A stretch of 64,000 nucleotides of DNA from an uncultured Pelagibacteraceae bacterium (GTDB lineage: Bacteria; Pseudomonadota; Alphaproteobacteria; Pelagibacterales; Pelagibacteraceae): positions 1-64,000 of the forward strand of contig CACNEM010000002.1 of NCBI GenBank assembly GCA_902619495.1. Direction: 5' to 3'. Below are positions 41,125 to 43,887 of the stretch, one piece after another. Within the stretch, counting starts at the first letter, position 1, and each line of letters opens with the position of its first letter. The notes beneath the pieces were generated by a model. The model ran no database searches and was not told the DNA's origin. It was given only the letters and a program-made list of their open reading frames with translations. The position numbers were made by a program, and so were the translations under genes.

Positions 41125-41211
41125 GGGCGAATGGTGGAACTGGTAGACGCGCCGGACTCAAAATCCGGTGGTAGCAATACCTTGAGAGTTCGAGTCTCTC
41201 TTCGCCCACCA
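41125..41211 (+). tRNA. tRNA-Leu (anticodon CAA)
   Basis: Acceptor stem GGGCGAA/TTCGCCC, anticodon loop CTCAAAA, T-loop GTTCGAGTC, encoded CCA. Confidence 0.95.
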
Positions 41212-41215
41212 AGTT

Positions 41216-42892
41216 ATGGATATAAGTAAATTAAATAGCTTAGTTGAACTTTACTTTAAAAAGTCAGAAGAAGTTGAGGGTAAAAGACCATTTTTAAAAT
41301 GGCTTAAACCTGACAAACGAACTTATAATTGGGAAGATGTAACTGAAAGAATTTATAAACTTACCGCAAAAATTAAATCGTTAATAAAACAAGGTGATAG
41401 ATGTTTAATACTTTCTGAGAATAGACCATATTGGTTAATGACCGATATCGCTATTATGAATGCGGGTGGTATTTCAGTTCCTATTTTTACAACTTATTCT
41501 GCAAACGATTATGAATATATTTTAAATGATTGTAAGCCCTCATTGATATTTGTGTCAAATCAAGATCAATTCAATAAAATTAAAAACTTTATAAATAGCG
41601 ATGTTAAGAAAATAATATCTTTTGAAGAAATAGATACTGAAAGTTTAAAAATCAAAGAAATTCTAGATGAAGAAATAAATGAAAAAATAGTAAATAAAGA
41701 TTTAAAAAGAAGTTTGCCTGCTTGTATAATTTACACTTCAGGAACATCAGGAAATCCTAAAGGAGTTGTTTTAAGTCATGGTGGTATTCTGTCAAACTGT
41801 GAAGGAGCAGTTGAGTTACTAGAAATTTTAATTAAAAAAAAAGATCCAGTATTTTTGACTTGGTTACCTTTATCGCATTCTTATGAACACACAGTTCAAT
41901 TCATACAAATCATAGTTGGGGCAAAAGTTTTTTATGCCGAAAGTTTAGAAAAACTGATCTCCAATATGGGAGCAGCAAAACCTACAATCATGACAGCCGT
42001 TCCCAGATTCTATCAAAATCTTTTTACAAAAATAAATATGAATTTTGAGAAGCAATCTGGATTTAAAAGAAAAGTTATAAATCAAACTCTAAACCTAGGT
42101 AAAAAAATACTCAAAAAAGAAGAATTAAAATTAAGCGAAAAAATCACTAATTTTTTGTGTGAAAAATTAGTTAGAAAAAAAATTAGAAATCAGTTTGGAG
42201 GAAATCTTCAAGCCTTCGTATCTGGGGGTGGGGCTTTGGATCAAAATATTGGAGAATTTTTAAATGCAGTTGGTTTACCCACGCTGCAAGGATACGGCCT
42301 AACCGAGGCTTCTCCGGTCGTAAGCTGTAATTTACCAGATTTAGTCAAGGTCGAATCAGTAGGACCTCCGTTTAGGACCAATAAAGTCAAAATAGCAGAA
42401 GATGGAGAAATACTTATTAAGGGTGAAAACGTTATGTTGGGGTATTGGAATTTAAAAGAAGAAACAGAAAAAGTAATTAAAGATGGATGGCTTCATACAG
42501 GTGACATAGGTGAACTCGATAAAAATAATTATTTAAAAATTACAGATAGAAAAAAAGATATCATTGTAAATCTTGGTGGAGATAATATTTCTCCAAGCAA
42601 AGTGGAAAATATTTTATGTTTAAATGAAAATATTAAACAATCGTTTGTTTATGGAGACAAAAAAAATTATTTAGTTGCATTAATCGTAAGTGAAAAAGAA
42701 AATAGTAAAGAAAAAATTAAACTCATAATTGAAAATATAAATAAAAGTTTAACTTTAATTGAAAAAATTAAAAAATTTATCGTAATTAATGATGAATTTA
42801 CAATTGAAAACGGAATGCTTACACCAACTTTAAAGTTAAAAAGAAAAGAAATAATTAAAAATTATAAACAACAACTAGAAAATCTTTATTAA
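41216..42892 (+). CDS. long-chain acyl-CoA synthetase (AMP-forming)
   Basis: IIYTSGTSGNPKGVVLSHGG, GYGLTEASPVVS, GWLHTGDIGELD. Confidence 0.92.
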   Translation: MDISKLNSLVELYFKKSEEVEGKRPFLKWLKPDKRTYNWEDVTERIYKLTAKIKSLIKQGDRCLILSENRPYWLMTDIAIMNAGGISVPIFTTYSANDYEYILNDCKPSLIFVSNQDQFNKIKNFINSDVKKIISFEEIDTESLKIKEILDEEINEKIVNKDLKRSLPACIIYTSGTSGNPKGVVLSHGGILSNCEGAVELLEILIKKKDPVFLTWLPLSHSYEHTVQFIQIIVGAKVFYAESLEKLISNMGAAKPTIMTAVPRFYQNLFTKINMNFEKQSGFKRKVINQTLNLGKKILKKEELKLSEKITNFLCEKLVRKKIRNQFGGNLQAFVSGGGALDQNIGEFLNAVGLPTLQGYGLTEASPVVSCNLPDLVKVESVGPPFRTNKVKIAEDGEILIKGENVMLGYWNLKEETEKVIKDGWLHTGDIGELDKNNYLKITDRKKDIIVNLGGDNISPSKVENILCLNENIKQSFVYGDKKNYLVALIVSEKENSKEKIKLIIENINKSLTLIEKIKKFIVINDEFTIENGMLTPTLKLKRKEIIKNYKQQLENLY

Positions 42893-43022: not shown

Positions 43023-43053
43023 TTGACATGAATTTTTAATTAATTAATGTAAT
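43023..43053 (+). promoter_or_regulatory. putative sigma70 promoter for the 22-aa basic micropeptide
   Basis: TTGACA 43023-43028, 19 nt spacer, TGTAAT 43048-43053; alternative -10 with shorter spacing possible. Confidence 0.45.
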
Positions 43054-43101
43054 TATTAACAAACGAATCATTAAGATTTGTTTACTAACAAGGGAGAAAA
43101 G

Positions 43102-43170
43102 ATGGCTAAAAGAAGAAAAAAAGCTAAAAAGAAAAAGAAAAAAGCAAAAAAGAGAAGAAGAAGAAGATAG
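43102..43170 (+). CDS. 22-aa protamine-like basic micropeptide (not in supplied ORF track)
   Basis: Own translation MAKRRKKAKKKKKKAKKRRRRR*; AGGGAG Shine-Dalgarno at 43091-43096; upstream TTGACA; strong terminator downstream. Confidence 0.75.
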   Translation: MAKRRKKAKKKKKKAKKRRRRR

Positions 43171-43184
43171 TTTTCTCTTTAACT

Positions 43185-43226
43185 AAACGCCCTTTTTATA
43201 ATTTAAAGTAAAAAGGGCGTTTTTTT
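43185..43226. terminator. intrinsic terminator between convergent genes
   Basis: AAACGCCCTTTTTA / TAAAAAGGGCGTTT perfect 14-bp stem, 10-nt loop, T tract on the plus strand. Confidence 0.85.
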
Positions 43227-43887
43227 ATTCTGTAGCTTCTAAAACTTTCGTTCTCCCTAACGCTTTATCCATTTTTTTTTGAACATCTTCAGGACTAATA
43301 TTTAAAACAGCTTCAAACTCTGATTTCAATCTTTCATAAGCTTTTTCAAAGAGTTGTCTTTCCGAGTAGGATTGATCTGCAATAATATCTGTGTTTTTAT
43401 TTAAATCCTTTACTACTTCAGCTAGCTCATAGATTTTCCCAGAATTAATTTTTTGATCATATTCTTGAGCCCTTCTACTCCACATTGTTCTTTTGATTTT
43501 AGGTTTAGTTTTTAAAATAGATATACATTTATTAATTTGATTAATTGATGATATAGGTCTTAGTTTTGATTGTTGATTAATAGGAACCGTTAAAGTCAAT
43601 TTTTCTTTCTCTACAAGAATTTTATAAAATTGAATATCAATATCACCAATAGTTGCTTTCTCTATTGATGTTATTTTTCCTACACCATGTTTTGGATAAA
43701 CGACATAATCTTTTAGATTATAAATTTTTTTCTCAGTAGGTTGTTTTTTTATTTTTTTTATCTCAGGTTTTTCATCAGATCCAGGTATAATGCTTTTCTT
43801 CTCGAGAGTTTTTGTTTGAGCTTTTGTTTTTTGTTTTTTTAGCTTTTTTGCTTTTTTTATTTTTTTTGATTTTTTCTTTTTTGGCAT
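43225..43887 (-). CDS. CarD-family transcriptional regulator with Lys-rich N-terminal tail
   Basis: YVVYPKHGVGKITSIE (CarD/RID-like), basic N-terminal tail MPKKKKSKKIKKAKKLKKQK. Confidence 0.9.
   Translation of the reverse strand: MPKKKKSKKIKKAKKLKKQKTKAQTKTLEKKSIIPGSDEKPEIKKIKKQPTEKKIYNLKDYVVYPKHGVGKITSIEKATIGDIDIQFYKILVEKEKLTLTVPINQQSKLRPISSINQINKCISILKTKPKIKRTMWSRRAQEYDQKINSGKIYELAEVVKDLNKNTDIIADQSYSERQLFEKAYERLKSEFEAVLNISPEDVQKKMDKALGRTKVLEATE

Follow-up and report, generated by a model that had tools for sequence, protein, structure and literature searches.

A conserved Lys/Arg-rich micropeptide gene convergent to CarD in SAR11 bacteria, with H1-like character and an invariant GANTC site in its leader

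A 22-aa ORF in which Lys and Arg make up 18 of the 22 residues lies convergent to the gene of a CarD-type transcription factor in a 64,000-nt stretch of SAR11 (Pelagibacterales) DNA (the window), drawn from a genome assembled into 23 contigs (870 kb, 77% complete). On comparative evidence, this ORF is a real, conserved gene. SAR11 cells, which rank among the most abundant on Earth, carry almost no dispensable DNA; despite this streamlining, the micropeptide gene has been kept at nearly every locus examined. It has apparently been overlooked so far: a literature search covering few subscription journals found no paper on it, and proteins of this kind would tend to slip past gene callers and trypsin-based proteomics. 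Meyer 2009 (PMC2704228) mentions unannotated coding regions given in a supplement, among which the gene may be listed. Our full model, in which the gene would specify an H1-like nucleoid polycation under GcrA/CcrM methylation control, stands evenly poised between right and wrong in our judgement, because charge alone cannot select DNA over RNA or polyphosphate.

An earlier note on this DNA had described a TTGACA element, a hairpin leader, AGGGAG, the ORF and a terminator between a fadD-like gene and CarD, and direct reading found all of these parts in place (Table 1). Two details needed adjustment. The dedicated promoter that it claimed has a perfect -35 element but no consensus -10 within the unit, where a promoter scan returned 0 sigma70-type sites; and the T tail of the terminator runs into the CarD stop codon (43225-43227). 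The terminator stem, described with 14 bp, has 15 pairs by our count (43185-43222; 0.1 terminators expected in shuffles). For the whole 206-nt unit, the folding energy is -39.1 kcal/mol (z = -3.9). Only a tRNA reached an Rfam gathering score in the window, the terminator giving weak, chance-level matches. A tRNA gene at 41125-41208 (+) directly precedes the fadD-like gene. At the level of sequence, every part listed (-35 element, GANTC site, hairpin, Shine-Dalgarno, ORF and terminator) was shown to be conserved across the SAR11 order.

Table 1. The micropeptide unit and its neighbours in the window.
Feature	Position	Strand	Supporting observation
Acyl-CoA-synthetase-like (fadD-like) gene, 5' neighbour of the unit	41216-42892	+	
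-35 element TTGACA	43023-43028	+	TTGAC 37-42 nt 5' of CGAATC in 176/180 distinct leaders, two families
Candidate weak -10, TAATGT	43045-43050	+	Placed by spacing only; TAAAGT or similar in relatives
Leader hairpin AAACGAATC-ATTAA-GATTTGTTT, inverted repeat	43061-43083	+	Fold; same-position hairpin in nearly all leaders
CGAATCA, GANTC site opening the leader hairpin	43064-43070	+	CGAATC in 207/207 leaders
Shine-Dalgarno AGGGAG	43091-43096	+	GGGAG in 204/209 orthologs
Micropeptide gene, MAKRRKKAKKKKKKAKKRRRRR (ATG at 43102, TAG ending at 43170)	43102-43170	+	Direct reading; syntenic orthologs in 210 loci, 19-99 aa
Intrinsic terminator	43185-43226	+	Terminator-like hairpin and T tail 3' of the stop in 189/189 distinct downstream sequences
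CarD/CdnL-type transcription factor with Lys-rich N-terminal tail, convergent conserved neighbour	43225-43887	-	Pfam CarD_TRCF_RID and CarD_C above cut-off

Since a low-complexity peptide of 22 aa cannot be searched for by similarity, we used CarD as an anchor, which gave a match in 116 of the 147 genomes of the window's family. At 89 of the 90 loci fetched, covering 11 genera of this family, an open ORF of the M[AP]-K-[KR]-R-K type ran convergent to CarD, a result that bears out the short-ORF search for CarD synteny suggested in the earlier note. The syntenic ORF was likewise convergent to CarD in 14 of 16 sister-family loci, the other two being cut at contig ends. The sole exception within the window's family (L078, on G006:C5) has its frame displaced by one base within a homopolymer close to the C-terminus and reads into IVEFSLNTLLITK; the shift is either a homopolymer error or real. 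Altogether the ORF was open at 210 loci (family loci, the 16 sister-family loci and the named GTDB contigs, which partly duplicate these genomes), with 92 distinct peptides and 127 distinct ORF sequences among them, and this number of syntenic orthologs rules out a chance ORF.

The pattern of change among the orthologs would suit a translated sequence. Their lengths differ by whole codons only, in frame; third codon positions are more variable than first; identical micropeptides are encoded by different DNA; and TAG and TAA serve about equally as stop codons. Between genera, identity over the first 27 nt of the ORF averages 83%, as compared with about 50% for the flanks, and the Shine-Dalgarno element, reduced to GGAG in the five orthologs without GGGAG, mostly lies 5-6 nt before the ATG. 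A short transcript unit with a conserved hairpin and terminator, and with one covarying pair in the leader, might instead yield a functional small RNA in which the ORF is incidental, but an ORF that stays open at 210 loci with in-frame length changes only (L078 being the one frameshifted exception), a universal Shine-Dalgarno element, the excess of third-position changes and the use of the same leader motif by the sister family for a protein of 76-99 aa make this highly improbable. A broken ORF beside a retained promoter and terminator had been named in the earlier note as the sign of an sRNA, and the opposite was observed. Its proposal of a real function is in keeping with what we found, namely a self-contained gene that is conserved in its syntenic place next to CarD and for which a function is likely.

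A degenerate pattern built on codons 1-10 matched 52 of the 147 family genomes, whereas its reversed control matched 0. Across GTDB, the pattern scan gave at least 118 stretches and, among the matches listed, all but six were from SAR11; the six others (L141, L152, L168, L209, L233 and L246) are N-termini of longer unrelated proteins and were rejected as orthologs. Viral carriage was also rejected, as the five matches, which had no CarD alongside, were either a 15-aa ORF or the N-termini of other proteins. In 24 loci of other alphaproteobacterial families, no comparable Lys/Arg ORF convergent to CarD was seen. Second MPKKRK-type starts occur elsewhere in the genome in three cases (G051:C1:34865, G093:C4:82690 and G087:C1:65244), and are possibly paralogs or the starts of other Lys-rich proteins. 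A 9.6-kb contig of MED817 (G030:C6; L173/L193) carries CarD and the micropeptide twice in inverted order, which is probably an assembly palindrome.

The longer orthologs bear on what the peptide may be. At the same place and behind the same leader motif, the sister family has a gene whose product, 76-99 aa long, is histone-H1/AlgP-tail sequence of the KKAAPKKRKAAKRKPA type (for example MEELKVIFAKARKKAKKKAAPKKKRKAAKRKPAKKKAAPKKKK...), with a Lys+Arg fraction of 0.53-0.61 and KKAAPKK/KPAKKK repeats. This Lys/Ala/Pro-type composition and the style of the repeats are those of the H1/AlgP/Hc2 tails (PMC9239181, PMC2848022). Peptide length falls along a CarD tree rooted with the sister family (a quick tree with many weak forks), from 20-58 aa in the early-splitting genera g5, g7, g9 and g12 of the window's family to 19-35 aa, mostly 20-25, in the large clade that includes the window. 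A low-complexity, Lys/Ala-rich tail, often with Pro, is found in the sister-family orthologs and in g12, and the 22-aa form of the window keeps the Lys/Arg part only. The simplest reading is that the micropeptide would be a shrunken H1-like tail, a protamine-sized stub, although repeats can also grow; the in-frame gain and loss of repeats characteristic of H1-like proteins spans 19-99 aa over the 210 loci. The peptides being of low complexity, the homology of short and long forms is drawn from synteny and shared regulatory parts and not from alignment, and because no micropeptide form matched a Pfam or NCBIfam model above cut-off, we call it H1-like in kind and not a family member. Such a peptide would work as H1 tails and protamines do, and the nucleoid-packing, protamine-like role suggested earlier would fit the H1-like longer orthologs.

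HU-family proteins were present in all 21 genomes tested, so the micropeptide would not be the sole nucleoid protein. A poly(Lys/Arg) chain can be expected to bind not only DNA but also RNA, ribosomes or polyphosphate. It is conceivable, if rather doubtful, that the translated polycation targets one of these, for example as a tiny ribosome-associated protein or an organiser of polyphosphate or granules: charge by itself specifies no polyanion, AlgP organises polyphosphate granules (PMC9239181), Hc2 binds RNA (PMC2848022), and the shortest micropeptides are without the Ala/Pro spacing of H1 tails. However, the long orthologs resemble DNA-condensing H1 tails, the gene is linked to CarD and not to ribosomal genes, and the promoter motif is of a cell-cycle/chromosome type.

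The CarD proteins of the order (L001-L106) themselves carry an N-terminal tail of 45-144 aa that is 30-50% Lys/Arg (43730-43887 (-) in the window); it is long, with KKKVAKK-type repeats, in the sister family, where the micropeptide is also longest. Taken with the convergent synteny throughout the order, this would fit a partnership in which micropeptide and Lys-rich tail jointly neutralise promoter DNA or the transcription complexes of rRNA genes. We regard the partnership as quite improbable: synteny can be inertia in streamlined genomes, and similar CarD tails are also carried by a small number of alphaproteobacterial families outside the order (f32, f88 and f111) that have no such gene beside CarD.

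The hairpin leader, treated as generic in the earlier note, is indeed present. It also contains a GANTC site that does not vary and whose spacing from the -35 element is fixed. The word CGAATC was unchanged in every leader long enough to contain it, in both families, the next base being A in 206 and G in one. Its distance from TTGAC, mostly 39-41 nt, places it at about +4 to +10 of a start deduced from the -35 element. CGAATC is a GANTC site, and its complement (TGATTCG in the window) fits YGAKTCG in all 207 leaders, within -40 to +40 of the start as given by the -35 spacing. In Caulobacter, GcrA has been proposed to activate promoters with methylated YGAKTCG, for which sites counted if they lay between -40 and +40 relative to the start and could act from both sides of the promoter; in a study on Brevundimonas, plain GANTC was recovered but not the extended motif (PMC7987155). 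In Pelagibacter, GANTC is methylated almost genome-wide, and this methylation tracks replication and is linked to the cell cycle (PMC9516812). GcrA was present in 21 of 21 family genomes and a RAMA-type (CcrM-like) methylase in 18 of the 21, including all 10 of the best genomes; no RAMA methylase turned up in the 77%-complete genome to which the window belongs. In both RAMA loci read (n = 2), rnhB lies directly before the methylase gene, and in two genomes YGAKTCG was absent from the leader of ccrM itself.

At the position of CGAATC, which forms the 5' arm, a hairpin with a variable loop folds in nearly all leaders, and one covarying pair (UA/AU/GU) was found in the leader stem of the genera with the long form, where the stem is shifted downstream. 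Both observations would suit a reading, compatible with an H1-like peptide, in which CGAATC is simply the arm of an RNA hairpin acting in mRNA stability or autoregulation and is unrelated to GANTC methylation or GcrA. The hairpin alone could account for part of the CGAATC conservation, but in the genera with the stem shifted 3' the CGA is unpaired yet unchanged, which argues that CGAATC is kept as a DNA word for its own sake. With the distance to the -35 element fixed and YGAKTCG matched by all 207 sites, we hold the hairpin-only reading to be possible but on the unlikely side. In 60 genomes, about 50 of the 55 matches to the combined TTGAC-CGAATC pattern fell at the micropeptide gene; the reversed control gave matches too, so the pattern lacks specificity by itself. 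A general role of the CGAATC hairpin as a SAR11 leader was discarded, the word pair occurring twice in the window's genome with the other copy inside a coding gene. In the sister-family leaders (L091-L106), AACCTCTAACTAAACCC faces GGGGGGAG about 40-10 nt before the ATG, a possible anti-SD/SD pairing able to control translation.

According to the full model, the monocistronic gene would give rise to a minimal, histone-H1-tail-like polycation. Its promoter, with a strong -35 and a weak -10, would be activated by GcrA-sigma70 once the GANTC site at about +5 is methylated by CcrM, and this methylation-dependent activation would tie peptide dosage to the passage of the replication fork. The mRNA, which has the hairpin at its 5' end, is probably stabilised or tuned by it. 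The translated peptide would bind DNA by its charge and help to compact or bridge the nucleoid alongside HU. A more pointed version, in which a free-standing H1 tail has eroded to ~20 residues in the most abundant clade of ocean bacteria and is switched by the methylated promoter GANTC, such that fork passage sets nucleoid compaction, appears unlikely to us. If it were true, few nucleoid proteins known would be as small as the micropeptide, and its gene would be a SAR11 GcrA/CcrM target with a site conserved order-wide. Were the GANTC reading to hold, it would supply a concrete promoter for probing methylation-based cell-cycle control in an organism in which CtrA is reportedly missing (PMC2877005). 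The gene would also show how small an intrinsically disordered, H1-like chromatin protein can become under continued selection; its forms of 99 down to 19 aa offer a natural experiment on how short a DNA-condensing tail may be.

Hc1/Hc2 of Chlamydia, BpH1 of Bordetella and the C-terminal tails of AlgP/PhaF in Pseudomonas are likewise low-complexity Lys/Ala/Pro polycations that vary in size by in-frame repeat units and have no apparent folded domain, and they resemble the long orthologs of the SAR11 order, which read KKAAPKKRKAAKRKPAKKK. In contrast to these, the peptides of the window's clade have 19-25 aa, no Pro, hardly any Ala and a poly-Arg C-terminus, and the SAR11 gene is a single conserved locus beside CarD with a GANTC promoter. 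Protamines and synthetic poly-Lys or poly-Arg share with the micropeptide a short, almost pure Lys/Arg sequence and, by analogy, a charge density that would be enough for DNA condensation; the SAR11 peptide differs from protamines in being bacterial and not from sperm and in having no Cys, and no homology is implied. The sigma70 promoters of the Caulobacter GcrA/CcrM system offer the closest regulatory likeness, with YGAKTCG (GANTC) near the start, no consensus -10, and GcrA and CcrM-type genes that are also present in SAR11-family genomes, whereas the SAR11 site, relative to its deduced start, would fall within the mRNA, at its presumed 5' end, and also serves as one arm of a hairpin.
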